Assembly: GCA_002367355.1 (NCBI GenBank)
Contig: DFBQ01000242.1
Coordinates: forward strand, 1 to 16,638
DNA from: Deltaproteobacteria bacterium UBA3076
GTDB taxonomy: Bacteria > Desulfobacterota > Dissulfuribacteria > Dissulfuribacterales > UBA3076
Direction of reading: 5' to 3'
Length of the DNA: 16,638 nt
Below are positions 1,553-14,189 of the stretch, piece after piece; position 1 is the stretch's first letter; each line of letters opens with the position of its first letter. The notes under the pieces are model-generated. The model ran no database searches. It was not told where the DNA came from and saw only the letters and a program-made list of their open reading frames with translations. Position numbers and translations under genes: made by a program.

Positions 1553-1795
1553 ATGCCAAAAGTAACTCAAAAAGGCCAGGTAACCATTCCTCAACAGATA
1601 AGGATTATGCTGGGCATCAAAACTGGCGATCAAGTTAATTTTGAGGTCGACGCAGGAACAGTTTATCTTAGGAAAAAACAGGCTTCAGTAGAAAATCTTA
1701 AAAGATATGTAGGCTATCTTTCGCATCTAAAAGGTAAAGAACCAGAAGATATTATAGATGAATTGAGGGATACCGCAGATGATTTTGGCCGTTGA
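1553..1795 (+). CDS. AbrB/MazE/SpoVT-type antitoxin (VapB-like)
   Basis: An 80-residue protein whose first ~45 residues match the swapped-hairpin AbrB/SpoVT DNA-binding fold: MPKVTQKGQVTIPQQIR, then LGIKTGDQVNFEV and GTVYLRKK. The remaining ~35 residues are acidic and probably wrap around the toxin. It would neutralise the PIN ribonuclease encoded next and repress the operon through the palindromes at 1515-1534. The gene overlaps the toxin gene by 17 nt, the usual antitoxin-first arrangement. The ribosome site is weak. The alternative, a stand-alone AbrB regulator, is less likely because of the overlapping PIN gene. Confidence 0.88.
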   Translation: MPKVTQKGQVTIPQQIRIMLGIKTGDQVNFEVDAGTVYLRKKQASVENLKRYVGYLSHLKGKEPEDIIDELRDTADDFGR

Positions 1796-2255
1796 TACCA
1801 ACATATTACTTGATATCTTGATCCCGAATACAAAACACGTTCATTCTTCTCTGAACTGCTTATTGAGTCTTGGTATCAGCGATAAGCTTATTATCAGTGA
1901 AATCGTGTTTGCCGAATTGGCTGCCCAGTTTCTATCCTTTCAGGATCTGAAGCAATTCTTAGATGATACTGGTATTACACGTGTCCCTTCAAACGAGACA
2001 TCACTATACGAAGCCAGCCGGGCTTGGAAAAAATATTCATCCCCAAAAAAGGGGCTCCTCATTTGTCCGGCCTGTGCGAAAAAGCAAAAAGCTTTCTGTC
2101 AATACTGTAAGGAAGTTATACCGCTTAGGCAGCATGTTCTGGCTGACTTCCTAATCGGTGCCCATGCGAAAATTCAGGCTGACATGCTCATAACAAGGGA
2201 TAGAGGCTTTTATCGTACTTATTTTAAGGGCTTGTTGATCAAGAAACCAAAATAG
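1779..2255 (+). CDS. PIN-domain ribonuclease toxin (VapC-like) with a zinc-ribbon-like insert
   Basis: A 158-residue PIN-domain protein, the toxin half of a VapBC-type module. The four acidic residues expected to bind Mg2+ and cut RNA are visible: Asp6 in AVDTN, Glu46 in FAEL, Asp123 in LADFLIGAHA and Asp141 in TRDRGF. Unlike the usual ~130-residue VapC, it carries an insert at residues 96-110 with two CxxC pairs (Cys96, Cys99, Cys107, Cys110) that could hold a zinc ion. The ATG at 1779 lies inside the antitoxin gene, suggesting coupled translation. The cellular target is unknown, but VapC toxins usually cleave tRNA or rRNA. All key residues are present, so it is probably active. Confidence 0.88.
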   Translation: MILAVDTNILLDILIPNTKHVHSSLNCLLSLGISDKLIISEIVFAELAAQFLSFQDLKQFLDDTGITRVPSNETSLYEASRAWKKYSSPKKGLLICPACAKKQKAFCQYCKEVIPLRQHVLADFLIGAHAKIQADMLITRDRGFYRTYFKGLLIKKPK

Positions 2256-2550: not shown

Positions 2551-3676
2551 ATGCAATATGATCTAGTTTTTGAAGGTGGCGGAGCAAAGGGCTCGGTGTT
2601 TGTCGGCGCGTTACAGGAATTTTTTGCTCGGGGACATACCGCAAGACGGTTCATCGGAACATCTGCGGGGGCAATAACCGCCACCCTCATGGCCGCGGGC
2701 TATGGGCCTGAGGAAATGCTGGAAGCAGTTAATGAGAAACTGCCAAACGGAAAACCCCGTTTTTCAACTTTCATGGATATCCCGGAGAAATTCGATGATC
2801 CGGATATTCATAACAGCCTTACCTATGCCATATTCAAAAAAGTTGACATTCCATTCATTCCCCAGTTGATGGAAGGAGTAGTAGATGACCGCATCTTCAG
2901 CGCTTTAATGAAAATCGATGCCTACCGGGAAATGTTTTCTTTTATCGAAAGAGGCGGTCTGTATGCAGGCGATGAATTTCTTAAATGGCTTACAGAGAAA
3001 CTGAATGCCGGAGGTCGCAACCTCGGCCATACAACTTTGTCGGAATTCCAGGATTGTACTGAAAGCGACCTTTCGATGGTGGCTTCAGACACCGAGGCCA
3101 AGGAAATGCGGGTTTTGAACCACAGAACGGCCCCGGACTGCCCTGTCAAATGGGCTGTGCGGATGTCCATGAGCATTCCTTTTATGTGGCAGGAAGTCAG
3201 GTGGCAGGCACAGTGGGGACCATACCTTGGTGAAGACATAACAGGACATAAGTTCGTGGACGGCGGAGTCCTTTCAAACTTTCCTATAGACTTGCTTACC
3301 TCGCGAGACGCGGAGGTAGTCAAAATTATGGGGGACACCGATCCGGACGAGGTGCCGAACCTCGGTTTTCTGATTGATGAAAAACTCCCTGTCGAAGGTT
3401 CCGGAGAGGCGGAAATTGAAGAAGGCTCAGAAAGTTTAGAAGGCGGTTTTACTCGATAACATAAAGCGTTTTAAAACCATCCGACGTATCAGGTGCCTTA
3501 TAGACACCATGACCAGCGCGCATGACAGGCTTGCCATTGAAGCCCACGAAAAAGAAATTTGTCGTCTTCCCGCAAAGTCCTATGGCACTACCGAGTTCGA
3601 TATGAGCGACGCAAGACTGCAAGCACTTATTAATGCAGGTCGCAAGGCCATGAAAGAGTATTTTGACCATCAGTAG
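2551..3676 (+). pseudogene. Patatin-like phospholipase with a C-terminal frameshift
   Basis: A patatin-family serine acyl hydrolase that would deacylate lipids with a Ser-Asp dyad. Visible are the oxyanion loop EGGGAKG (residues 8-14), the nucleophile elbow GTSAG with Ser38, and the DGG motif with Asp237. A strong GGAGGAG ribosome site precedes the ATG. The first frame ends at 3459 after 302 residues. The conserved tail (IDTMTSAHDRLAIEAHEKE, LPAKSYGTTEFDMSDAR and KAMKEYFDHQ) continues one frame over and stops at 3676. The shift must occur between about 3440 and 3455, because the second frame has a stop at 3437-3439. The intact protein would have about 374 residues. The catalytic core is unaffected, so a shortened product might still fold. 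A sequencing error is possible. Confidence 0.85.
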
Positions 3677-4148: not shown

Positions 4149-5039
4149 GTGAAGTCAAATATGATAGTGAGACAACGTGCGTTTCAATGGACGGATTACT
4201 GGATCCACGCGAATATAGTCGCTGCTGATATAGAGCATTATCGCGTTTATAATACAGGACTGGGGGTTTTGTATGGAGGAGACTGCCTTGAACTCTTACG
4301 ACTCATCAGAAGTGAGACGATCGATACCGTTTTTGCTGATCCTCCCTTCAATCTTGCCAAGAATTATGGATCAAGAGTAACCGACAAACTACCGGATGAT
4401 AAATATATAAACTGGTCCAAGGAGTGGCTCAGAGAATGCGTGAGGCTTCTCAAGCCGGGTGGCGCGCTCTTTGTATATAATTTGCCGAAGTGGAACCTTA
4501 TACTCGGCAATTATTTGATGGAAATGGGCCTGTTATTTCGTCATTCGATAGCGATTAACATTAAGTTAGGTCTGCCTATTCCGGGACGCCTTTACCCGTC
4601 GCATTATAGTTTGCTTTATTTCACTAAGGGAAAACCAAAGACCTTCCGAAAAATTCGAACACCCATTGAAAGATGTCGCCATTGTGGAGGGGAACTTAAG
4701 GATTATGGCGGACACAGAAACGCCATGAACCCGAAAGGCGTTAACCTCACGGATGTTTGGAATGACATCCCGCCAGTCAGACATTGGAAATTTAAGAGCA
4801 AGAAGAGGACGGCCAACCAACTATCCACTAAGCTTCTATATCGTGTTATTCAGCTTTCGACGAAAGAGCATGACATTGTCTTAGATCCTTTCGGAGGTAG
4901 CGGAACCACATATGACATATGTGAACGGACCAACCGCCATTGGATCGGAATCGAATTGGAAAGCTGCGAAGTCATCATCGAACGTTTGGAGAACCGAGAA
5001 CTGAGTCTTCACAAGTCAGAAGATTACGTCGAAGATTGA
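4149..5039 (+). CDS. DNA methyltransferase, beta-type motif order (N6-adenine or N4-cytosine)
   Basis: A 296-residue amino-methyltransferase that would transfer a methyl group from S-adenosylmethionine to an exocyclic amino group in DNA. The catalytic motif IV, DPPF (64-67), comes before the AdoMet-binding motif I, DPFGGSGTT (246-254), which is the beta-class order. Between them lie LKPGGALFVYN, the YFTKG strand and a CRHCGGELKDYGGH segment that may bind zinc. The GTG at 4149 is the first start after an in-frame stop at 4137; the ATG at 4161 is equally plausible, and neither has a strong ribosome site. It is followed after 1 nt by a second methyltransferase and faces a BamHI-family endonuclease, so it is probably a modification enzyme. 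Target base and sequence cannot be read from the protein alone. Confidence 0.88.
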   Translation: MKSNMIVRQRAFQWTDYWIHANIVAADIEHYRVYNTGLGVLYGGDCLELLRLIRSETIDTVFADPPFNLAKNYGSRVTDKLPDDKYINWSKEWLRECVRLLKPGGALFVYNLPKWNLILGNYLMEMGLLFRHSIAINIKLGLPIPGRLYPSHYSLLYFTKGKPKTFRKIRTPIERCRHCGGELKDYGGHRNAMNPKGVNLTDVWNDIPPVRHWKFKSKKRTANQLSTKLLYRVIQLSTKEHDIVLDPFGGSGTTYDICERTNRHWIGIELESCEVIIERLENRELSLHKSEDYVED

Positions 5040-5040
5040 A

Positions 5041-6420
5041 ATGAGGTTGAATGTGACTCCGGCTAGCGTCCTTGATGTCCTCTCACAAGATTTATCCAAA
5101 CAATTGTTTCCTGTTGAACGGCAACTCGTGCCGAATCTGGATGACGTTTATGAATTAGAACTCGCGTTCTATGAAAACCACCTCCTTGCCGACGAAGAAC
5201 TCATACGAAATGCAGCATATTTTGCCCGGATAGGTGACACCTACACTCGCCACTTCCTTATGTGCACTGGTGAATCGTTGAAGCTTCCTGAGCATTCGTC
5301 ATATAGGCTGAAGTCCTTTTTCGAAAGAAATCTATTCAGAACCGGCTATGCAACCCATGGCCTCTTTCCTTACCGGGGTAAATTTCATCCTCAAATGATC
5401 AAAGGCATCATAAATGTTATGGGGCTTAAGCCAGGCCATACGGTCTTGGACCCTATGATGGGTTCTGGCACTGTACTTGTCGAGGCGTGTTTGATGGGAA
5501 TAGGATCGATCGGCATAGACTTGAGTCCGTTCTGTAGATTCATGGCTCAGACGAAGATCGATGCACTTACAATGTCTTTGTCCCGAGCACGTAAGGCGCT
5601 CGAGAATTGTGAAGAGGTATTTGCATACTTTCAAAAACAGGTTGGCAAACCGCATCCTGGTATCAAAACCTGCAAAACTCCGACATCCAGGGGCATTATG
5701 GCGGTAATGGAGCCGGGTGCTGAATATGAAACTAAGAAAAACAGACCTCAGCTAACAGGAAAGGAGCGGGAAACTCGCGACACTTATAATCTCCTATTGC
5801 TGGCTTACCTGGATAGTGCCGGGTATTCCGAAAGAAGTCGCCGCAAGTCGCCGTTTGATCAGTTTAAGGCTATACTTGAGCGGTATCTGTTTGTTACAGA
5901 AAAGATCCAGAATGTTCTTAATAACGTAGAATTGGATCTTGCCCCTGCGAAAGCTCTTGAAGGTGATGCCAGGGCCCTTTCACTTGAGGACGCAAGTGTG
6001 GATGGTATAATTTTTTCTCCCCCATACAGTTTTGCCATTGATTACCTGAAAAACGATTCTTTCCATTTGAATTTTCTCGGAGTCGCAACTGATGACATTC
6101 GTAAGGATATGGTGGGCCTTCGTGGACATAAGTTGTCTGAGAAATTTGAACTCTATCAGCAGGACATGGACAAGGTGCTCTCAGAATGTGCACGGGTTTT
6201 ACGCCGAGGTCGTCTGTGTACAATCATTGTTGGGACAAATAACAACCAAATAGGAAAAGCCATGGGAGTATCTCCAAAAGAGGTTCGCGGCCTTCATGAA
6301 ATGCTAACCGATTTGAGCTCAAAACATGGTTTCCAACTAGTAAAAATGATGAGCCGACCCATCACGGGTATTTACAATACGATGCGGCGTGAATACATTT
6401 TGATGCTCTGTCGGAACTGA
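5041..6420 (+). CDS. Second DNA methyltransferase with SPPY motif (probably N4-cytosine)
   Basis: A 459-residue AdoMet-dependent methyltransferase. Motif I is DPMMGSGT (137-144), followed by the acidic residue of motif II in IGIDLSPF. The catalytic motif IV is SPPY (326-329), so the order is I then IV, the reverse of the preceding gene. SPPY is typical of N4-cytosine enzymes. The ~120 residues before motif I and the ~170-residue spacer probably carry target recognition. The ATG lies 1 nt after the upstream stop, so the two genes are co-transcribed. Its stop is only 4 bp from the stop of the convergent BamHI-like endonuclease. BamHI-type sites are protected by N4-cytosine methylation, which makes this a good candidate for the cognate enzyme, but the assignment between the two methyltransferases is inference. 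Confidence 0.85.
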   Translation: MRLNVTPASVLDVLSQDLSKQLFPVERQLVPNLDDVYELELAFYENHLLADEELIRNAAYFARIGDTYTRHFLMCTGESLKLPEHSSYRLKSFFERNLFRTGYATHGLFPYRGKFHPQMIKGIINVMGLKPGHTVLDPMMGSGTVLVEACLMGIGSIGIDLSPFCRFMAQTKIDALTMSLSRARKALENCEEVFAYFQKQVGKPHPGIKTCKTPTSRGIMAVMEPGAEYETKKNRPQLTGKERETRDTYNLLLLAYLDSAGYSERSRRKSPFDQFKAILERYLFVTEKIQNVLNNVELDLAPAKALEGDARALSLEDASVDGIIFSPPYSFAIDYLKNDSFHLNFLGVATDDIRKDMVGLRGHKLSEKFELYQQDMDKVLSECARVLRRGRLCTIIVGTNNNQIGKAMGVSPKEVRGLHEMLTDLSSKHGFQLVKMMSRPITGIYNTMRREYILMLCRN

Positions 6421-6424
6421 GGCT

Positions 6425-7033
6425 TTACTTAAGAGCCCTTCCGTCAGTACCTTTTTTTATCCGTGGCACATCCTGACTGACCGCATCGTGTTCTATAGCT
6501 ATGACGACTAGCAAACCTTCGTCAATATGAAGGGCTCTCCATAAAGGAAAGTAAGGTTCAATTTCAGGAAAATTGCCGATCCTATCCGTGAGATATTTAT
6601 ACATTTCTCTGGTAGGCACAATCAAGGCTCCACCGATCAGTATTTTCTTCAAAATACCCAACGCCATTTTGTTTATCGCACGATGGCTGGATGATACATT
6701 TCCTGTTTCCCACTCAACACAGAAGAGGCGGTCACCGACCGGACGAGTAGCATCCATCGGTCCTGGTCTTCTGACTGTTGCTATGTCAACAGGTGTTTCT
6801 AACTGCCAACCCAGAAATTTCAACTTGTGCATACAAGCCTCTTTTATGGGTTTGACACCGCTACCCCGGCCACGCTTTTTGCCAGGTTCATCGTAGAGCG
6901 TAAAAGAACCAGACCCCGGAGGCCATTCGACCGACTTAATTGCCTGGACGATGTGTCCCTCGATCTCTCTCCATTCATGAGAGTGGGAGAATGCCCCTGC
7001 GTCGATTATTGGCTCTATTCGGACGATTTTCAT
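6425..7033 (-). CDS. BamHI-family type II restriction endonuclease (predicted GGATCC)
   Basis: A 202-residue protein aligning well with BamHI (213 residues). Catalytic positions are kept: Glu65 (BamHI Glu77, PIKE motif), Asp94 (GPMDA), and Glu107 and Glu109 in VEWETGN (BamHI Glu111 and Glu113). The base-contacting residues also match: Asn112, Ser114 and Arg118 (BamHI Asn116, Ser118, Arg122), and Asp150-Arg151 in YLTDR (BamHI Asp154-Arg155). The C-terminal PRIKKGTDG stretch matches too. These comparisons are from memory of the BamHI sequence. I chose the ATG at 7033, 1 nt after the controller stop; the longer frame from 7099 would overlap the controller by 65 nt. It acts as a dimer making staggered cuts. 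GGATCC occurs at least twice here, at 4201 and 11892, so protection is needed. Confidence 0.92.
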   Translation of the reverse strand: MKIVRIEPIIDAGAFSHSHEWREIEGHIVQAIKSVEWPPGSGSFTLYDEPGKKRGRGSGVKPIKEACMHKLKFLGWQLETPVDIATVRRPGPMDATRPVGDRLFCVEWETGNVSSSHRAINKMALGILKKILIGGALIVPTREMYKYLTDRIGNFPEIEPYFPLWRALHIDEGLLVVIAIEHDAVSQDVPRIKKGTDGRALK

Positions 7034-7034
7034 A

Positions 7035-7328
7035 CTAAACTGAGTTGATTTTATGTCTGCTTTTGGAATGATAGGTGGCAAGAGACTGAACTCGCTCAAT
7101 CATCTCGGACGGCTCCACCTTTAACGCTTTGGCTAATTCAAAAATGGTGCGAAGAGACGGGCTTTTATGTCCCCGTTCAAGCAGACTTATGTATGTGCGG
7201 TGATACCCGCTGGCAAACCCAAGTTCTTCTTGAGAAAATTTACGGTCTCGGCGAAGTTGCTGGAGAACCTGGCCAAACGACTTGGTAATAGGCCTGTCTT
7301 CCGAGCCTTTTGAAGTGTTTTTCTTCAT
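7035..7328 (-). CDS. HTH (XRE-type) controller protein of the restriction-modification system
   Basis: A 97-residue Cro/C1-type helix-turn-helix protein. The HTH runs from about residue 19 to 75 (FGQVLQQLRRDRKFSQEEL, then HRTYISLLERGHKSPSL, then LAKALKVEPSEMI). Its size and position directly upstream of, and probably coupled to, the endonuclease gene match the C proteins of restriction-modification systems such as C.BamHI. These delay endonuclease expression and activate their own operon. The ATG at 7328 is preferred over the TTG one codon upstream. A repeated GACTATA element about 25-50 bp upstream is the likely binding site. The plus-strand NTPase gene diverges from it across 139 bp. Confidence 0.88.
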   Translation of the reverse strand: MKKNTSKGSEDRPITKSFGQVLQQLRRDRKFSQEELGFASGYHRTYISLLERGHKSPSLRTIFELAKALKVEPSEMIERVQSLATYHSKSRHKINSV

Positions 7329-7353
7329 CAAACATGATATGTGTTCGAATGCA

Positions 7354-7467: not shown

Positions 7468-9582
7468 ATGGCCTCTTCAGAAAATATGATCTCTGAAACC
7501 GACAAGAAATTCGCTCAAAAGGCCTACAAGGTTTTTGTTTCGAGCACATATCTTGATAACAAAGCGAGGCGGAGAATAGTACAGGACGCCATAACCATGG
7601 CCGGGATGGTCTGGCACGGGATGGAGATATTTACTGCGAGCACCAGCCCCACGGTGGAAGAATGCCTGCGTTATGCCAGGGAAGCGGACCTCCTGGTGGG
7701 CGTCATTGCCTGGCGCTACGGGTGGGAGCCGGAGGGGCATGAAAAATCCATTACAGAAATGGAATATGACGCAGCCGCAGAGAGACTGATGTTCCTGATT
7801 GACCCGTTGCTACCGGTGTACCAGGACAAGGACTATGATCCTGGTCCGGACAGGTGGAAGAAACAGGAAAAACTGGAAGCCTTTAAAAAGCGGTTTTCCA
7901 AAGACCAGATGCCTGCATATTTCAATGAAACCACGTTACAGGCAAAGGTGCTTGCTGCACTGAACGAGTGGCGGGAGAAATGCGAAATAGGGAGAGGCGG
8001 GGAACCGGCTCCTGAACCCTATGCAGTATCCGGACCAGCACCCCTGCGCTACCCGGAACTGGATCAGGAAATCAAGACCTATTGCCAGAAGGCAGAGGCC
8101 CTGCACTCAACCTTGCCTGTGGCTGGTTTTGTCACTCAGCTCAAGGTAAGCATAGACATAGAGGACATTTTCGTTCCTCTGCGCGCCATGCTGGACTTGA
8201 GTGGAGTGGATGGGAAGCGGTTTCTCGGTGCGGACCATGCCGAGGAATATCTGAGGCGCAGTGACTCATGCCTTGAGATCTCGCTCCTTGAGGCCTTTCG
8301 CCAATCCGAACAACGCGGGCAAAAAGGCCTTGTCATTCTGGGAGATCCAGGGTCAGGCAAGACCACGCACTTGAAAAGGCTGCTGCTGTGGTGTCTGCAT
8401 AAAGGCCCCGAGACCTTGCATCTTCCAGCAGGAATGCTGCCGGTGTTCCTGCCTTTGAGGGAACTCAAGAATCTTGATCAGGGCCTGGACGCTTTTATTC
8501 AGTGCCAGTTTGACAGCCCTCACTATAAAACCCCAAAAGGTTTTGGCGAGCAGTTGCTTAAACGCGGCAATCTCCTTTTCCTGCTGGACGGACTGGATGA
8601 AGTGGCGGATCTCTCCCATCGTGAACAGGTGGCCAAATGGATTGTGGAGGCCCTGCGTTTTTATCCTGACTGCCGGTTCGCGATCACCTGCCGTTTCGCA
8701 GGGTACAGTCCCACAGTACGCCTCAGTGAGGGTTTTCTCGAGATGCACGTGCGGCCCCTTACAGAGGACCAGGTCGAGCGATTTGTCCACAACTGGTATA
8801 GGGTCGTGGAAAAGGGCCTGGCAAAAGACCCTAAGCTGGCCGAGTCCATTGCCGCGGAAAAGGCGGACAATCTGGTCAAGCGCCTTCAGGAGCCTGACTT
8901 CCGGGCACGCCGAGTATTTGAGCTTACCCGCAACCCCCTGCTGCTCACAAATATCTGTCTTGTGCACCGGCATAGGGGTAGCCTGCCGCGCAAGCGGGCC
9001 CGGCTTTACGAGGAGTGTATCGACGTGCTCCTGGAACACTGGCGGGAGGCAAAGGGGCTCAAGGTGGGCGTAACCGCCCGCGATGGCTGCAGGGCCCTGC
9101 AGCCCGCGGCATTTTGGCTGCATTCAGAGGAGGGAAGGACCCAGGCAACGGCCGAGGAACTTAAGCCTCATATTGAGCCTGTTCTGAAAGCCGTGGACTG
9201 GAAGGAAGGCACAACTGAGGATTTCCTCCGCACTATCCGCGACGACAGCGGCCTTCTGACAGGCTGGGATCAGGAACACTATGGCTTTATGCACCTTGGT
9301 TTTCAGGAATACCTGGCCGCGCGGGAGATCAGGAGCCGGTCGTTTGAAGATCCGGCTGTTCTGCAAGAGCTTGCACTGAGCTTCGGTGAATCATGGTGGC
9401 AGGAGGTTGGATTGCTTATGCTTGCCCTTGAGGACCCGTCTCGTTTTATTCCCTACATGCGCGAGCGAGGTGGTAAAGCAACCTGCCTTTGGCGAGGCAA
9501 GTCATTCAAATCTGGTGGAGGCATGCCTGGACGACGCAGCCGAGAAATCATCTCTGCCTTTTTTGGAACTTTTGCAGATTGA
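7468..9582 (+). CDS. DUF4062-NACHT STAND ATPase, N-terminal part of a frameshifted DGR-target gene
   Basis: A 704-residue frame with an AGGAG site 8 nt before the ATG. Residues ~20-105 form a DUF4062 domain (KVFVSSTYLD, YAREADLLVGVIAWRYGW, MEYDAA). A linker follows, then a NACHT ATPase: Walker A GDPGSGKTT at 292-300, Walker B LLFLLDGLDEV around 370-379, the sensor-like AITCRFAGY and the LTRNPLLLTNICLVHR helix. A winged-helix/helical region with FMHLGFQEYLAAREI closes the part. STAND ATPases switch from a resting to an oligomeric state on ligand sensing. From about codon 665 the frame changes: the last ~40 residues are out of frame, and the real continuation is read one base over (see the next entry). 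The shift lies at a GCGA tandem repeat (9461-9468). Removing 1 or 4 bases gives one protein of about 1,000 residues. It is either a pseudogene, an assembly error or a split gene. Confidence 0.88.
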   Translation: MASSENMISETDKKFAQKAYKVFVSSTYLDNKARRRIVQDAITMAGMVWHGMEIFTASTSPTVEECLRYAREADLLVGVIAWRYGWEPEGHEKSITEMEYDAAAERLMFLIDPLLPVYQDKDYDPGPDRWKKQEKLEAFKKRFSKDQMPAYFNETTLQAKVLAALNEWREKCEIGRGGEPAPEPYAVSGPAPLRYPELDQEIKTYCQKAEALHSTLPVAGFVTQLKVSIDIEDIFVPLRAMLDLSGVDGKRFLGADHAEEYLRRSDSCLEISLLEAFRQSEQRGQKGLVILGDPGSGKTTHLKRLLLWCLHKGPETLHLPAGMLPVFLPLRELKNLDQGLDAFIQCQFDSPHYKTPKGFGEQLLKRGNLLFLLDGLDEVADLSHREQVAKWIVEALRFYPDCRFAITCRFAGYSPTVRLSEGFLEMHVRPLTEDQVERFVHNWYRVVEKGLAKDPKLAESIAAEKADNLVKRLQEPDFRARRVFELTRNPLLLTNICLVHRHRGSLPRKRARLYEECIDVLLEHWREAKGLKVGVTARDGCRALQPAAFWLHSEEGRTQATAEELKPHIEPVLKAVDWKEGTTEDFLRTIRDDSGLLTGWDQEHYGFMHLGFQEYLAAREIRSRSFEDPAVLQELALSFGESWWQEVGLLMLALEDPSRFIPYMRERGGKATCLWRGKSFKSGGGMPGRRSREIISAFFGTFAD

Positions 9583-10468
9583 TCCTGGGAATGACACAGG
9601 ACTTTGGAAACGGCAGTTTGTAGCACTCCGCGTCCTGGAACGTCTGGACCCATCAGCAGTAAACGGTCTTAATTCAATACTTGAGCGACATCCCTATCCT
9701 GAAATCCGTCAACGGATCAAGGGCCGGGCTGAACAGGCTCTCCTGGATGTTTTCACAGCCGAACAGGGAGGCTACGAACTGATCAGGATTCCTGGATGGG
9801 TATTCATGATGGGCTCGCCTGAATCGGAAGCAGAGCGTTTTAGCGACGAGGGGCCTTTGCACAAGGTGACTGTCCCTGATTTTTACATTGGCCGGTATCC
9901 GGTGACCAATGAGGAGTATGGCCTGTTTCTGAAAAATAACCCGGATGTGCCGGAACCGAGATACTGGGCCCACAGGCAGTATAACCAGCCCAGGCAGCCA
10001 GTTGTGGGAGTGAGTTGGGATGACGCAAAGAAATACGCTGAATGGGCCGGTCTGCGCCTGTCCACTGAAGCGGAGTGGGAATATGCATGCAGGGCAAACA
10101 CACAAACCAGGTATTATCCGGGTGACAAGGAAGAAGACCTTGACCGTGCGGGCTGGTATGACAAAAATTCAGCTCACCGGCTCCATCCTGTGGGTGAAAA
10201 GGAGCCGAACAGCTTCGGTCTGTATGATATGCACGGAAATGTCTGGGAGTGGGTTGAGGATGGCAAGCACGATAATTACAATGGTGGACCGAGTGACGGA
10301 AGTGCCTGGATCGATAGCCCAAGGAGTTCTATCCGGGTAATCCGCGGCGGCAGTTGGGGCGGCGGCGCGCACCTCTGCCGGTCGGCGATTCGTCGCGGCT
10401 TCCCGCCCTACGACCGCAGTGACTACCTTGGCTTCCGCTTCTCCAAGTCTGTTTCCCTTGGCCCTTGA
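9386..10468 (+). CDS. FGE-sulfatase/C-type-lectin-fold domain with DGR variable region, C-terminal part of the same gene
   Basis: This frame is the continuation of the preceding ATPase. True homology starts near 9466 with EVVKQPAFGEASH; the nominal ATG at 9386 has no ribosome site and its first ~25 residues are out-of-frame NACHT sequence. After an all-helical stretch, an FGE-sulfatase domain begins near 9768 (ELIRIPGWVFMMGSPESE, then PVTNEEYGLF, LSTEAEWEYACRA, FGLYDMHGNVWEWV). It ends in the variable region VIRGGSW...LGFRFS at 10334-10468. Active FGEs use two cysteines in this final segment. Here those positions fall in a hypervariable segment, so ligand binding rather than formylglycine formation is expected. 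The domain would be the changeable sensor of the NTPase. If translated alone it would need re-initiation. Confidence 0.82.
   Translation: MNHGGRRLDCLCLPLRTRLVLFPTCASEVVKQPAFGEASHSNLVEACLDDAAEKSSLPFLELLQIDPGNDTGLWKRQFVALRVLERLDPSAVNGLNSILERHPYPEIRQRIKGRAEQALLDVFTAEQGGYELIRIPGWVFMMGSPESEAERFSDEGPLHKVTVPDFYIGRYPVTNEEYGLFLKNNPDVPEPRYWAHRQYNQPRQPVVGVSWDDAKKYAEWAGLRLSTEAEWEYACRANTQTRYYPGDKEEDLDRAGWYDKNSAHRLHPVGEKEPNSFGLYDMHGNVWEWVEDGKHDNYNGGPSDGSAWIDSPRSSIRVIRGGSWGGGAHLCRSAIRRGFPPYDRSDYLGFRFSKSVSLGP
10334..10468 (+). other. DGR-type variable region 1 (VR1)
   Basis: These are the last 45 codons of the first FGE domain, aligning without gaps to 13951-14085. Codons 9-11, 13-15, 21, 26, 28, 30 and 31 encode G,G,G,H,L,C,R,Y,R,D,Y here and N,F,V,L,Y,R,S,G,H,G,D in the second copy. 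All 22 codons end in C, and all 15 differences among them fall at first or second positions. Only seven other substitutions occur in the 135 nt. This is the signature left by adenine-specific mutagenesis of AAC-like template codons. No template copy is present here to prove it. Confidence 0.85.
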
Positions 10469-10572
10469 GTTCTTGGACCCTTGGCATTCGGCCCGCAGCG
10501 GAGGGAAGGGAGCGGAATAGCCGCCGAAGCGGAGCAGGCGGCATATGAGCGACCGGATTGCAGCGGAGGGCC
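10469..10572 (+). repeat. Conserved post-VR segment, copy 1 (IMH/hairpin-like)
   Basis: The 104 nt after the VR1 stop codon match the 104 nt after the VR2 stop (14086-14189) at 95 positions with no indels, although neither is coding. It contains a GCCGCC/GGCGGC stem (10520-10525 with 10537-10542). In known DGRs the 3' end of the VR carries the initiation-of-mutagenic-homing element and is often followed by a hairpin needed for target recognition. This segment fits that place; the role is inferred. Confidence 0.7.
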
Positions 10573-10652
10573 ATGAGTTGATTCCATGAGTCTGATTAAA
10601 TCGAAAGAAGAAAAAATATGAGACGAGGTGTCGAGCTCTCGGAGATGTTAAA

Positions 10653-11501
10653 ATGGTAATTCTTGAAGGGTTAATCACAAATATCATTGGTAAAATTGGA
10701 GAAATGGCGGCTGGGAAAGCATGGGCCTCCATGCCCAGGAATCATAAGGTTATGAAGCTTTTTAAGGCCGTTGGGCTCAAGCCCGGTAAACCAGAGCCGG
10801 ATTTTGATTCCGTATATGTGCATGCATTGGTCGAATATGGTGTTGAACAGCCGAAAAAATCTATTCTTGATTTCTTCAAGCATGAAGATATCCGTAAGGC
10901 CTTTAGGAATTCTTTTGATAATAATGACCTCGCGATCCTGCATAATGAGGCTGCAACCCTGATTAAATGGAACATGATCGGAGACGATTTACGTGATGAA
11001 GATATTGATCCGCGTCTTGAATTCGCCAGGTTCACCCTTGTATTTAATGAGATGGTGGACCGCACCCGGACCCCGGCTGAGGTCAGGAGGGAACATAAGC
11101 TTGACGAGATCCTGCAGGTTATAAAGGAAAGTGATCTGAATATAATCCGGGCCAAGCAGATTGAAATGATACAGGGCGGGCGTCCTGAACAATTGAAAAC
11201 CTGGTTTCAGACCCTGGGGTATAGTTTTGGAGGCCATGACATCTGCACGGATGAGTATTGTGAATGGATTATAAGAATTTCAACCCGGCGCGGATTTGAC
11301 AGCATCCTTGTAAGGTTTATTGAAAACCAGGCTGAACCTGAGGACATAAAAAGGGTTGAAGCGGCTGTAAAGCAACATCAAACTGAAGAAGGATGGCTCA
11401 TTGCCGCTCATAGAACATCCAGGTCTGCAAAGGAACTGGCGGAAAACAGTGATAAAATTTGGCATCCTTCATATCAAGCCAAAAGTAGTTTACATTTTTA
11501 G
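10653..11501 (+). pseudogene. N-terminal part of a second DGR-target NTPase: helical region plus restriction-endonuclease-like domain
   Basis: The 282-residue frame starts at an ATG 8 nt after GGAG. Residues 1-150 are mainly helical (KAVGLKPGKPEPDFDSVYVHAL, then HEDIRKAFRNSFDNND). Residues ~170-270 resemble the restriction-endonuclease-like/Mrr-type N-terminal domain of some NACHT proteins: GFDSILVRFIE, then EEGWLIAAHRTSRSAKELAEN. The natural reading continues DKIFCYTFDE into the next frame, but a 203 bp element inserted after 11460 adds about 13 foreign codons and a stop. Removing the element plus one target-site copy (211 bp) restores one open frame of 1,073 residues from 10653 to 14085. 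The predicted role is the effector nuclease-like end of a STAND NTPase. The catalytic residues are not clear to me. Confidence 0.78.
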
Positions 11502-11663
11502 GGGTAATATACCTCAAAAAATATGACTTGTGCGATTAGCTGTTAGATTTTAGCTTAACAGTCCGTTTTTATACAAAATTTTTACCTAATAGCTAACGGC
11601 TAACAGCTAATGGCTGGCATCCGTCTATGTTGAAAAAGTGTAAACTACAAAATGAAGGATGCC
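11461..11663. mobile_element. MITE-like insertion with perfect 8 bp target duplication
   Basis: A 203 bp element lies between two copies of TAAAATTT (11453-11460 and 11664-11671). Its ends are inverted: GGCATCCTTCAT at 11461-11472 against ATGAAGGATGCC at 11652-11663. A second inverted pair follows, GTAGTTTACA (11485-11494) and TGTAAACTAC (11639-11648); the left arm has about nine extra bases between the two. Inside are inverted motifs around TAGCTGTTAG (11532-11552 and 11586-11616). It is too short to encode a transposase, so it would be moved in trans by one recognising these ends. The family is unknown to me. Confidence 0.88.
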
Positions 11664-14085
11664 TAAAATTTTCTGTTATACCTTTGATGAGAAGCTTGAT
11701 GAGCAGGCGGATTTCAGCAGGTATTTCAATTGGCTTGAGTCCTTTGTAAAAGAGCGGCGTATTGATGCTGATTATGTGCCATTGGCGTGCAAACGTGAAA
11801 TAATCGATCAGACAACCGGGGAAAGGACAGGTGAAGAACGTTACGGCAAAGAGGAAGGATGGATAGAGGGTTATATTGACAGGTGGCTTGAGGATCCCTG
11901 CAAGGAACATATTTCCATTCTGGGTGAATTCGGCACCGGAAAGACCTGGTTCACCCATCATTATGCCTGGCAGGTAATGGAGAACTACATTGAGGCAAAG
12001 GAGAAAGGGCTGAAACGCCCCCGTCTGCCGCTTGTAATACAGCTCCGTGATTATTCAAAGGCCCTGAACAGTGAATCCCTTTTTTCCGATTTTTTCTTTC
12101 GCAAACATGAGATACCGCTTCCCGGATATTCTGCATTTGAGCAACTGAACCGCATGGGAAGGCTGCTTCTGATTTTTGACGGTTTTGACGAAATGGCCGA
12201 CAAGCTTGACCGTCAGAAAATGATCAACAATTTCTGGGAACTGGCAAGGGTCGTGGTTCCCGGAGCAAAGGCCGTGCTGACGTGCCGCACAGAGCACTTT
12301 CCCAATGCCAAAGAGGGAAGAGACTTGCTCAACGCAAAGTTGAAAGCTTCCACGAGATACCTGAGCGGTGATCCGCCCCAGTTTGAGATCCTGGAACTGG
12401 AGCAATTTAATGAGGACCAGATCCGTGACGCCCTTTTAAAAAGAACCGACCAAAAAACTGTTGATCTTATCATGAGCCATCAAGAGCTGCTTGATCTTGC
12501 CGGCCGTCCTGTAATGCTGGACTTTCTTGTGGAGGCCCTGCCGGATATAGAGGCGGAGAAGCCGGTGGATCTCTCAAGGATCTATTTTTATGCAACAAAG
12601 GCAAAGCTGGAAAGGGATATCAAGGAAAAGCGAACTTTCACTTCAATGGCGGATAAGCTTTATTTTCTGTGTGAATTGTCCTGGGAGATGTTGACTTCTG
12701 AAATGATGAGTCTCAACTACCGGCTTTTTCCGGACCGGCTCAGGAATCTGTTCGGCCCGGTGGTGTCTGATGAAAAAGATCTCGACCACTACCATTATGA
12801 CATGATGGGCAATACTCTCCTGACCCGGAATGATGACGGGGACTATTCTCCGGCCCACCGGTCATTGCTGGAATTCTTTGTTGCTTTTAAAGCCGTGGCA
12901 GAGCTTGGCGTGCTTCCTCCGGATTTTACCGCGGCTGCCGGGAGTCAGTCAAATATTAACGAACTTCGTGATCCCTTGGACTACACATGGGATTCCTATT
13001 TCCGGCGGGGGAAGGATGAAGACGGAAATATAAGGCAGATTTCGCCGTTAAAAGGCTTTCTGGCCGGGGACAGGGACAAGGTGCTGGAATCCCTGGGCCG
13101 TATGGGTGATGCGGTCTTGCGTTTTATTCACGAGATTACCAATGTCGAAGAGGTCCGGCCTGCTTTTCACGAAATGCTTGCAGGGGTTATGGACGAATTC
13201 AAGGATGGAAACCGTGATCCTGAAAAGCAGCAGAATATCATAAGTTTTATTCTGAAGTTCAGGAGACTCAGCCAGGAATGGGAGGAACAGGCAAATCAAG
13301 GTGATTCCATTCGTCGTTTCTGGTCAGATCATCTGGAAAGGGAACTAAGTGATGCAAGAGGAAAGACCTGGGTTGAGCCATTGTCTCTGGAGCGTCCAGG
13401 GGAGTCTCCCATAAAATTCGAGATGGTCCAGGTGCCTGCAGGTTCATTTCTAATGGGAGATGAATCAGAAGGGCCGATACTGAGGGCAGCTATTAGTGAA
13501 CCGTTTATGATTGCCACAGTGCCGGTTACCAATGCACTTTACAGCGCGGTCACAGGCCATACGCCCAGCCGTTTTGAAGGAGATGAACGGCCTGTGGAGA
13601 CTGTATTCTGGCTTGGTGCGGTCAGGTTTTGCAACAGCCTTTCAGAAAGGTTGGGCCTTGAATCGGCCTATGCAATTGACGGCGATAGGGTTGAATGGCT
13701 GCGGGCAAGCACGGGCTTCAGGCTTCCAACAGAGGCGGAATGGGAATATGCCTGCCGGGCTGGCACAACGACCCGTTTTTCCTGTGGCGACCTGGAGTCC
13801 GGTCTGGCGACCATGAGTTGGTATGCTCAAAACAGCAAAGGCGGAACCAAACCTGTGGGGCTGAAAAGACCAAACGCCTGGGGGCTGTTTGACATGCACG
13901 GAAATGTCTGGGAGTGGATTTGGGATTTGTACGAAGAAGGAGGCTCTGACCGGGTGATCCGCGGCGGCAGTTTGAACTTCGTCGCGCTCTACCGCCGGTC
14001 TGCGATTCGTAGCGGCTTCCCGCCCGGCGACCACAGCGGCGACCTTGGCTTCCGCCTCTCCAGGTCTGTTTCCCTTGGCTCTTGA
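11659..14085 (+). CDS. NACHT STAND ATPase with C-terminal FGE/C-type-lectin DGR variable domain (main part of second target)
   Basis: An 808-residue frame. Its ATG lies inside the right terminal repeat of the inserted element, so the start is accidental; the native sequence resumes at KIFCYTFDE. The order is a short linker (YVPLACKRE, GWIEGYIDRWLEDP), then NACHT with Walker A GEFGTGKTW (89-97) and Walker B LLLIFDGFDEMAD (D174, D177, E178), then LTCRTEHF and the helical region with SPAHRSLLEFFVAFKAV. From about residue 585 an FGE-sulfatase domain follows (EMVQVPAGSFLMGDES, VPVTNALY, LPTEAEWEYACRAG, FDMHGNVWEWIW). It ends in variable region 2. The fold suggests a binding module without formylglycine activity. 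Together with 10653-11460 it forms a predicted nuclease-NACHT-variable sensor protein, currently split. Whether this part is translated alone is unknown. Confidence 0.88.
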   Translation: MPKIFCYTFDEKLDEQADFSRYFNWLESFVKERRIDADYVPLACKREIIDQTTGERTGEERYGKEEGWIEGYIDRWLEDPCKEHISILGEFGTGKTWFTHHYAWQVMENYIEAKEKGLKRPRLPLVIQLRDYSKALNSESLFSDFFFRKHEIPLPGYSAFEQLNRMGRLLLIFDGFDEMADKLDRQKMINNFWELARVVVPGAKAVLTCRTEHFPNAKEGRDLLNAKLKASTRYLSGDPPQFEILELEQFNEDQIRDALLKRTDQKTVDLIMSHQELLDLAGRPVMLDFLVEALPDIEAEKPVDLSRIYFYATKAKLERDIKEKRTFTSMADKLYFLCELSWEMLTSEMMSLNYRLFPDRLRNLFGPVVSDEKDLDHYHYDMMGNTLLTRNDDGDYSPAHRSLLEFFVAFKAVAELGVLPPDFTAAAGSQSNINELRDPLDYTWDSYFRRGKDEDGNIRQISPLKGFLAGDRDKVLESLGRMGDAVLRFIHEITNVEEVRPAFHEMLAGVMDEFKDGNRDPEKQQNIISFILKFRRLSQEWEEQANQGDSIRRFWSDHLERELSDARGKTWVEPLSLERPGESPIKFEMVQVPAGSFLMGDESEGPILRAAISEPFMIATVPVTNALYSAVTGHTPSRFEGDERPVETVFWLGAVRFCNSLSERLGLESAYAIDGDRVEWLRASTGFRLPTEAEWEYACRAGTTTRFSCGDLESGLATMSWYAQNSKGGTKPVGLKRPNAWGLFDMHGNVWEWIWDLYEEGGSDRVIRGGSLNFVALYRRSAIRSGFPPGDHSGDLGFRLSRSVSLGS
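13951..14085 (+). other. DGR-type variable region 2 (VR2)
   Basis: These are the last 45 codons of the second target gene, starting VIRGGSL and ending LGFRLSRSVSLGS. It is collinear with VR1 to the base. Framework codons (RGGS, RSAIR, GFPP, LGFR, SVSL) are nearly unchanged, while eleven NNC codons differ only in their first two bases. Upstream, ATGCACGGAAATGTCTGG is also identical in both genes, as expected for the constant part that borders a VR. Confidence 0.85.
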
Positions 14086-14189
14086 GCCCTTGGACCCTTG
14101 GCCTTCGGCCCGCAGCGGAGAGAAGGGAGCGGAATAGCCGCCGAAGCGAAGCCGGCGGCGTATGAGCGACCGGATCACAGCGGAGGGCC
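14086..14189 (+). repeat. Conserved post-VR segment, copy 2 (IMH/hairpin-like)
   Basis: This is the partner of 10469-10572. The hairpin is one pair longer here: GCCGCCG (14137-14143) with CGGCGGC (14153-14159). A further small stem, GGCC-TTC-GGCC, lies at about 14100-14110 and is imperfect in copy 1. Similarity ends abruptly after GGAGGGCC in both copies. Confidence 0.7.

Follow-up and report, generated by a model that had tools for sequence, protein, structure and literature searches.

Paired NNC-patterned variable regions at the 3' ends of two interrupted NACHT-FGE receptor genes in a deltaproteobacterial genome: possible relics of a diversity-generating retroelement

Two neighboring genes of Deltaproteobacteria bacterium UBA3076 end in a shared 45-codon repeat whose variation resembles the footprint of a diversity-generating retroelement (DGR). 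How did two receptor genes come to carry such variable regions (VRs) in a genome where no template repeat (TR) or DGR reverse transcriptase (RT) is detectable, and are these regions still being rewritten? We examined the window, that is, the whole 16,638-nt stretch of contig DFBQ01000242.1, together with genomes of the same genus and more distant relatives (Table 1).

Table 1. Positions of the two receptor genes, their variable regions, and associated elements in the window.
Feature	Positions	Strand	Basis
Gene 1 first part: DUF4062-NACHT ORF, 704 aa	7468..9582	+	Pfam DUF4062, NACHT
Gene 1 second part: FGE-sulfatase domain ORF, 360 aa, with VR1	9386..10468	+	Pfam FGE-sulfatase, 188.7 bits
VR1	10334..10468	+	Hypervariable core, codons 8-31 (10355-10426)
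Conserved 3' element after VR1, about 104 nt beyond stop	10469..10572	+	Comparison with VR2 copy
Gene 2 first part: NNH5 + NA-iREase1 ORF, 282 aa	10653..11501	+	Pfam NNH5, NA-iREase1
MITE-like insertion in gene 2, 203 bp	11461..11663	+	Terminal inverted repeats and flanking direct repeat
Gene 2 second part: NACHT-FGE ORF, 808 aa, with VR2	11659..14085	+	Pfam NACHT, FGE-sulfatase
VR2	13951..14085	+	Hypervariable core, codons 8-31 (13972-14043)
Conserved 3' element after VR2	14086..14189	+	Comparison with VR1 copy and genus matches

VR1 and VR2 align without gaps over 45 codons, as the first-pass annotation of this DNA had described, and differ at 22 of 135 nt. Twelve of the 15 codons that change the amino acid are NNC in both copies. 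The earlier count of 11 NNC codons with 15 differences at positions 1 and 2 holds if codon 36 (TTC/CTC) is set aside; with this codon included, 12 NNC codons carry 16 such differences. The framework codons, previously called almost identical, are fairly but not exactly so, with six further differences at position 3 of codons 2, 17, and 29, position 2 of codons 8 (TGG/TTG) and 38, and position 1 of codon 44. The NNC pattern exceeds chance, since C is the third base of only 25-28% of codons in the two VR-bearing ORFs and differences are more frequent at presumed variable sites (13/30) than at framework sites (7/78; Fisher p = 1.2e-4, with site classes picked after inspection of five genus copies and homologs). 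VR1 and VR2 have identical variable codons at positions 19, 22, 23, 24, and 27. Such sharing would be rare under two independent rewritings, unless the template has no A there.

Does the same pattern hold beyond this pair? Across five genus copies, a set that excludes the copy L008, the third base of 13 hypervariable codons is C in 58 of 65 cells and T in the other 7; the variable but non-NNC codons 19 and 24 were not counted. Inside the core, differences move from position 3 to positions 1 and 2 in all three pairs compared (p = 0.006, 0.009, and 0.012). Adenine occupies 0 of 25 invariant columns in codons 8-31, compared to 15 of 76 in the 3' element (p = 0.019, gapped columns skipped); it is also scarce at the invariant columns from codon 32 to the stop (2/37), so the depletion is not sharply limited to the core. 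As no template was found to read against, we infer adenine specificity from the VR copies. At the protein level, the VR is the least identical section in 9/9 comparisons with related proteins. Gene 2 and its homolog P0121 share 720 of 769 residues (94%) upstream of the VR and 12 of 12 after it but differ at 12 of 24 within it, suggesting that diversification ran until fairly recently somewhere in the lineage. Furthermore, K, E, Q, M, and W, which NNC cannot encode, make up 88 of 1918 residues at 14 variable positions and 16866 of 74102 elsewhere in 137 homologs. The variable codons, apparently of AAC-to-NNC type and located in a C-type-lectin/FGE domain, thus point indirectly to DGR targets.

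Both VRs lie at the ends of genes whose predicted products combine a NACHT NTPase with an N-terminal effector-like domain and a C-terminal FGE domain, an organization that, judged from Pfam matches and from single-chain P0121, corresponds to STAND/NACHT receptors. Compared with related sequences, both genes are interrupted, gene 1 by a frameshift and gene 2 by the MITE-like insertion. Gene 1 switches frame near 9455-9470, a point at which the related P0002 protein continues as one chain. The first part of gene 2 aligns to residues 1-269 of P0121 (1072 aa), a single chain with NNH5, NA-iREase1, NACHT, and FGE domains. The MITE-like element has 12-bp perfect terminal inverted repeats, is flanked by an 8-bp direct repeat, TAAAATTT (11453-11460 and 11664-11671), and has 58 matches in its own genome, many of them partial, as well as matches in 8/8 genus genomes. 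The ATG of the downstream ORF falls within the end of this element; that ORF has an uninterrupted reading frame and might be expressed. Among 395 phylum genomes, a search for gene 2 orthologs (E <= 1e-100) returned only the own genome. A protein search nevertheless listed homologs 65-70% identical, some of them named (Desulfococcaceae bacteria HSG7 and HSG9), so the phylum search, by its sample or its initial pass, had missed them. A planctomycete match (L019) was left out of the analysis. PADLOC gave one weak PDC-S60 match, for the DUF4062-NACHT ORF, and none for the NACHT-FGE, NNH5, or FGE ORFs or for P0121.

If a DGR wrote these tails, where are its template and its enzyme? The first-pass annotation had proposed a search for both, and that check failed. 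In the own assembly (95.1% complete, 244 contigs), BLAST and a degenerate framework pattern with at most 3 mismatches found only VR1 and VR2. RT searches with one DGR-RT protein and a 24-row DGR-RT alignment, both of which recover the DGR RT of the sister genome G002 as a positive control, had as their sole matches in the own genome an RT of group II-intron type and a Cas6-RT-Cas1 protein. No intact DGR RT was found in the four module-bearing genomes of the genus, the own genome included (95, 83, 92, and 94% complete). These negatives rest on the DGR-RT protein and alignment searches, because a genome search with Pfam RVT_1, rejected as sole detector, failed to list the DGR RT of G002 (C26), which hmmscan places above the RVT_1 cutoff. 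DGR RTs carry a GxxxSQ motif. C130 and C105 were rejected on their motifs, QGGIISP and SQGSVVSP, and C105 is Cas6-RT-Cas1 by Pfam; C342, the other RT of genome G003, has YADD and no GxxxSQ in its frame. The single bAvd match in the own genome scores 19.4 bits, far under the family cutoff of 40. L008, from genome G006, was rejected as a template, being an eroded VR-like copy that is not AAC-rich. Given an assembly of this completeness and fragmentation, the missing TR and RT do not strictly refute a DGR. The earlier DGR assignment is supported by the additional tests described above for the origin of the variable codons in the FGE/C-type-lectin-type domain, but nothing shows a working DGR in this genome.

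We consider it most likely, by a modest measure, that VR1 and VR2 are relic or dormant DGR variable regions with their machinery presumably lost, or else outside the bin. This reading builds on the failure to find a TR or DGR RT in the assembly, on the interruption of both genes, and on drift in the VR frameworks. An AAC-rich template RNA would have been copied by reverse transcription that erred at adenines, and the resulting cDNA would then have replaced the 3' ends of the two genes, creating the NNC codons. These codons may fall in a ligand-facing loop of an FGE/C-type-lectin-type domain that would serve as the C-terminal sensor of NACHT (STAND-type) conflict receptors, with DUF4062 as the N-terminal domain in gene 1 and NNH5 plus NA-iREase1 in gene 2. 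Framework drift between VR1 and VR2 (7/78) is as large as the drift between their 3' flanks (9/104), which is not expected if one template had recently written both. In the complete DGR of Desulfobacterales bacterium HSG16, the frameworks of two VRs differ at 1/97, compared to 11/155 in a 160-nt flank (p = 0.03) or 5/100 in a 104-nt flank (p = 0.21). Drift in the window framework differs from that in the HSG16 framework with p = 0.02 (7/78) or, on a stricter count of 5/78, p = 0.09, a statistically modest contrast. Framework drift set against flank drift offers a simple template-free test, of modest power here, for continuing rewriting of a DGR target.

Could the VRs instead be targets of a working DGR? 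Its TR and RT would sit in an unassembled or unbinned contig, plasmid, or phage and act on the VRs in trans, which we regard as a real but less probable state of affairs. It would suit the incomplete assembly and the divergence of the P0121 VR, and Thiohalocapsa sp. PB-PSB1 is described as having remote (trans) targets and strains with and without the RT (PMC10907252). However, the four module-bearing genomes yielded no intact DGR RT, and the equal drift of framework and flank speaks against recent copying. Viral contigs held no exact-pattern match to the VR framework or to part of the 3' element, and plasmids gave no blastn match; a phage or plasmid source of the module was rejected on these searches.

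The shared repeat does not end with the coding sequence. It runs past both stop codons to about 10572 and 14189 (253-column alignment, 86% identity). The 3' element has five matches in the genus (4/8 genomes), all adjoining VRs, and the same module of about 240 bp ends three NACHT-FGE gene types there, DUF4062-NACHT, NNH5/NA-iREase-NACHT, and HD-CE-NACHT, the last in G006 and G003. It was matched in 4 of 46 genomes of the order, all of the same genus, and none outside it. Because one module occurs on three gene types and no resident intact DGR was found, the VR plus 3' element could conceivably be a movable sensor-tail cassette, an unlikely proposal in which ready-randomized tails would spread among receptors by DNA recombination or be refreshed in trans by an RT on another replicon. 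The 3' element gave no sign of RNA structure or a cruciform, as five of five genus copies fold no better than shuffles (z = -0.04 to 1.64, single-stranded DNA parameters). Rfam gave no match at gathering score in the window.

The relic reading counts the interruptions as real. We doubt that both are assembly artefacts and that both receptors are intact and in use: the contig that supplies the window comes from a fragmented assembly, P0121 and P0002 show that uninterrupted homologs exist, and the MITE-like element is repetitive and so could be misassembled, but its matching terminal repeats and 8-bp flanking duplication within gene 2 are those expected of a real insertion, and the frame change in gene 1, judged by eye, looks as though several bases differ, unlike a slip in a homopolymer. 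Ordinary duplication, with gene conversion and diversifying selection acting on the sensor loop of an FGE domain and no DGR at all, is very improbable: the common 3' flank suggests that the module was duplicated as DNA, and no template was found in the genome, yet selection does not explain the third-base C of hypervariable codons, the depletion of K, E, Q, M, and W there, or the fact that relatives with a similar framework have AAC-rich templates whose mismatches fall mostly at A.

NACHT-FGE receptor genes ending in a VR are a published class of DGR target, and targets without nearby machinery have also been published. The NACHT-CLec targets of DGR 3 in Thiohalocapsa sp. PB-PSB1, as described by Dore et al. 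2024 (PMC10907252), likewise have a central NACHT and a diversified C-terminal lectin-type domain, and that account includes duplicated targets, MITE-like elements, and some loci that have lost RT or TR, as here. Unlike PB-PSB1, the host of the window is probably a Seep-SRB2-type sulfate reducer, its MITE-like element lies inside a target gene, its genome yielded no TR or DGR RT, and at the N-terminus its receptors carry DUF4062 or NNH5/NA-iREase1 domains. Kaur et al. 2020 (PMC7159879) describe a DGR-diversified FGS/FGE domain in NTPase-based conflict systems, as here, in systems that center on vWA-MoxR/VMAP ternary systems. Also comparable are the remnant DGR target all3226 of Anabaena (Nostoc) PCC 7120 and a degraded DGR in Anabaena sp. 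90 (PMC7517822), where a variable-protein paralog has remnant TR-VR homology but no nearby RT; these are cyanobacterial, and the term NACHT is absent from the main text of that paper, whose authors suggest that diversification components were removed after a good variant had been selected. A role of DGR-diversified NACHT receptors in a form of adaptive immunity has been put forward for multicellular bacteria and their consortia (PMC10907252), and Seep-SRB2 is described as one sulfate-reducing partner group in consortia with methane-oxidizing archaea (PMC10553843). If the relic reading is true, orphan and apparently frozen VRs would mean that diversification can be switched off with its products retained in the genome.

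The anatomy recurs in template-bearing DGRs of relatives, whose mismatches lie mostly at template A. The HSG16 DGR (L020, JAUCGE010000076.1) resembles the window in its VR framework (C-RSA-x-R ... LGFR), NNC codons, and several targets, and its four VRs have 57 mismatches at template A and 8 elsewhere. Unlike the window, it has a TR and RT at the locus and almost identical frameworks in two VRs, and among its targets the one examined pairs FGE with caspase instead of NACHT. A very strong hairpin follows the VR in the HSG16 copy L021, whereas folding of the 3' element of the window showed none. In the same genus as the window, the G002 DGR (L037) also has an FGE-domain target, with 21 VR/TR mismatches at template A and 0 elsewhere; its framework and TR differ from those of the window, and it has bAvd. 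The reading frame of its VR differs from that of the FGE ORF start. Its RT frame stops close to the contig end, downstream of the YVDD motif, and the C-terminal half was matched on another contig.

VR1 and VR2 form the 3' ends of two NACHT-FGE receptor genes (gene 1 and gene 2, respectively), and very probably both derive from a diversity-generating retroelement (DGR). Realignment confirmed the 45-codon alignment without gaps and the NNC pattern described in the first-pass annotation, and its count of 15 differences within 11 NNC codons was reproduced; 7 further differences lie elsewhere, for a total of 22 over 135 nt, and one of them falls in codon 36, which is NNC in both copies as well. Among the 15 codons with amino acid changes, 12 are NNC in both copies, the exceptions being codons 8, 38, and 44. 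The repeat extends ~104 nt beyond the stop codons, an extension absent from the earlier annotation; the VR and this conserved 3' element are referred to here as the module.

The DGR origin is supported by several tests that need no template. Five copies in codon register were compared (VR1, VR2, and those in the retrieved stretches L018, L023, and L024), excluding an eroded copy in L008. At the 13 hypervariable codons (9 to 11, 13, 14, 21 to 23, 26, 27, and 29 to 31), C occupies the third position in 58 of 65 cases and T in the remaining 7, while variable codons 19 (NTT) and 24 (CCG, TGG, CGA) depart from NNC; gene-wide, third-base C amounts to 25 to 28%. Differences at codon positions 1/2/3 number 7/9/2 in the hypervariable core (24 codons) versus 63/63/87 upstream (160 codons) for VR1-VR2, 9/9/4 versus 51/42/96 (301 upstream codons) for VR1-L018, and 13/6/8 versus 96/49/186 (904 upstream codons) for L023-L024 (positions 1 plus 2 versus 3, core versus upstream, P = 0.012, 0.006, and 0.009, respectively). 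Adenine is absent from the 25 invariant columns in codons 8 to 31 but occupies 15 of the 76 in the 3' element (P = 0.019), although codons 32 to stop are likewise low (2 of 37). The VR is the lowest-identity part in all nine comparisons with related proteins: identities upstream of, within, and after the VR are 94%, 50%, and 100% between gene 2 and the single-chain protein P0121 and 86%, 50%, and 85% between gene 1 and its single-chain counterpart P0002. Among the 240 proteins listed, a loose VR pattern fits 142 and a strict one 137. In these 137 homologs, which include the window's own protein and are related, hence not independent, residues inaccessible to NNC make up 88 of 1,918 at 14 positions with entropy of >3 bits versus 16,866 of 74,102 elsewhere in those proteins, with exceptions at positions 13 (20%) and 24 (18%).

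DGRs in relatives served as positive controls. Pattern scanning of contigs from named genomes yielded 7 stretches, of which Desulfobacterales bacterium HSG16 accounts for 3 (L020 to L022). L020 contains two VRs, a reverse transcriptase (RT) with a PIGNLISQ motif, and a template bearing runs of AAC. Mismatches to this template fall 57 times at A sites and 8 times elsewhere for four VRs in L020 to L022, and 31 times and once for the two VRs sharing its locus. In the sister genome G002, L037 carries an FGE target and a template together with a bAvd protein and an RT truncated near the contig end, and its VR differs from the template repeat (TR) at 21 A sites and nowhere else. The RT frame ends directly after YVDD, in sequence starting GTGCG, similar to a group II intron 5' end; the C-terminal half matches a separate contig, C2. 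The hairpin in HSG16 L021 exceeds in length the short ones known for phage DGR targets.

As a check, the first-pass annotation proposed looking for a TR next to a DGR-type RT; its DGR reading is supported here for the origin of the VRs only. In the own genome (2.6 Mb, 244 contigs, an estimated 95.1% complete), BLAST with VR1 and its flanks and a framework pattern allowing ≤3 mismatches found no match beyond VR1 and VR2. Used as queries, the HSG16 RT and a 24-row DGR-RT alignment both recovered the G002 RT, but in the own genome they returned only proteins on contigs C130 (group II intron type, by motif) and C105 (Cas6-RT-Cas1), neither a DGR RT. Because of the latter protein, CRISPR spacer uptake from RNA may be possible in this genome. 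The module occurs in 4 of 46 genomes of the order, all of the same genus (the own genome, G003, G006, and G007), and the 5 matches to the 3' element among the 8 genus genomes searched all adjoin VRs; viral contigs gave no exact-pattern match to the VR framework or to part of the 3' element, and plasmids gave no BLAST match. G006 and G007 gave no RT match. In G003, a 184-aa frame spans DGR-RT profile positions 174 to 265; its other RT, on C342, lacks the DGR motif. The reading frame abutting the RT fragment in L038 is presumably Sua5/YrdC-like.

Because a TR and an RT were sought and not found, the locus is not classed as a complete DGR; we regard VR1 and VR2 as orphan DGR-type variable regions at the ends of NACHT-FGE receptors, putatively with the function of a DGR-diversified NACHT sensor. 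This kind is already known. Dore et al. 2024 (PMC10907252) report targets of the NACHT-CLec type, targets served in trans, and arrays of MITE-like elements in place of RT or TR, and in PMC7517822 an Anabaena target retains remnant TR-VR homology but has no RT nearby. Domains of this type are placed in conflict systems by Kaur et al. 2020 (PMC7159879), and PMC8144416 states that contig-based surveys miss remote DGR targets. Most likely, the host is a sulfate reducer of the Seep-SRB2 type, and within a limited literature collection no paper was found on Seep-SRB2 together with diversity-generating elements.

Between VR1 and VR2, the framework differs at 7 of 78 sites and the flank at 9 of 104 (P = 1.0); codon 2 position 3 and codon 28 position 2 could be template adenines, and setting them aside gives a safer count of 5 of 78 (P = 0.78). 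At the HSG16 locus, the two VRs show 1 difference across 97 template-non-A sites, versus 11 of 155 in a long flank (plus 10 gap columns; P = 0.03) or 5 of 100 in a 104-nt flank (plus 8 gap columns; P = 0.21), and the window framework compares with the HSG16 framework at P = 0.02 (7/78) or 0.09 (5/78). Framework departures from the majority in the five genus copies number 3, 4, 3, 6, and 12 of 78. VR2 has W to L at codon 8 and C to R at codon 15, residues conserved in 129 and 133 of the 137 homologs. This drift is suggestive of dormancy, not proof of it, and two different templates would also explain the framework differences. On balance, we lean slightly toward VR1 and VR2 being relic or dormant in their own genome.

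Gene 2 is uninterrupted in relatives (a single chain, 1,072 aa in P0121) and is split in the window by a 203-bp MITE-like element. The terminal inverted repeats of this element are perfect over 12 bp, and an 8-bp duplication flanks it; the element may break the assembly, because several of its matches sit at contig ends. The window covers bases 1 to 16638 of contig C40 (17,373 bp). Gene 1 changes frame near 9455 to 9470 relative to P0002, and its relative in G007 (L018) is likewise in pieces. The module ends open HD-CE-NACHT-FGE frames of 1,057 aa in G006 and 944 aa in G003, the HD-CE match in G003 scoring 26.0 bits, below the cutoff of 27. An eroded relic lies shortly upstream of the 1,057-aa gene, which ends in an open VR.

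Features of the window and of related loci
Feature	Location	Strand	Remarks
VR1	window 10334-10468		
VR2	window 13951-14085		
MITE-like element	window 11461-11663		58 matches in own genome (many partial); matches in 8/8 genus genomes searched
Likely restriction-modification cluster	window 4149-7331		upstream of receptors; two DNA methyltransferases, BamHI-family restriction enzyme, small HTH protein
Likely toxin-antitoxin pair	window 1553-2255		MazE/PrlF-like antitoxin, PIN-domain protein
Patatin-like phospholipase ORF	window 2551-3459		weak similarity to PADLOC phospholipase effectors
Cas6-RT-Cas1 protein	own genome C105 1526-2149 (L004)		1,085 aa
HSG16 template	L020 4572-4630	minus	pattern match
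HSG16 HRDC-domain protein	L020 5651-6166	minus	adjoins DGR RT
HSG16 hairpin	L021 ~2110-2200	minus	very stable, long, directly after VR; z -6.85
Different DGR, G002	L037 4770-7155 (C26)		VR frame differs from start of its FGE ORF
DGR-like RT fragment, G003	L038 ~4320-5120 (C164)	minus	IGNLTSQ, YCDD; genome carries VR module
Eroded VR-like relic, G006	L008 ~1440-1620 (C63)		with part of 3' element
G007 VR			sequence agrees with JAJSZR010000048.1
G006 VR			sequence agrees with JAFDDO010000051.1
G003 VR			sequence agrees with QNAY01000105.1
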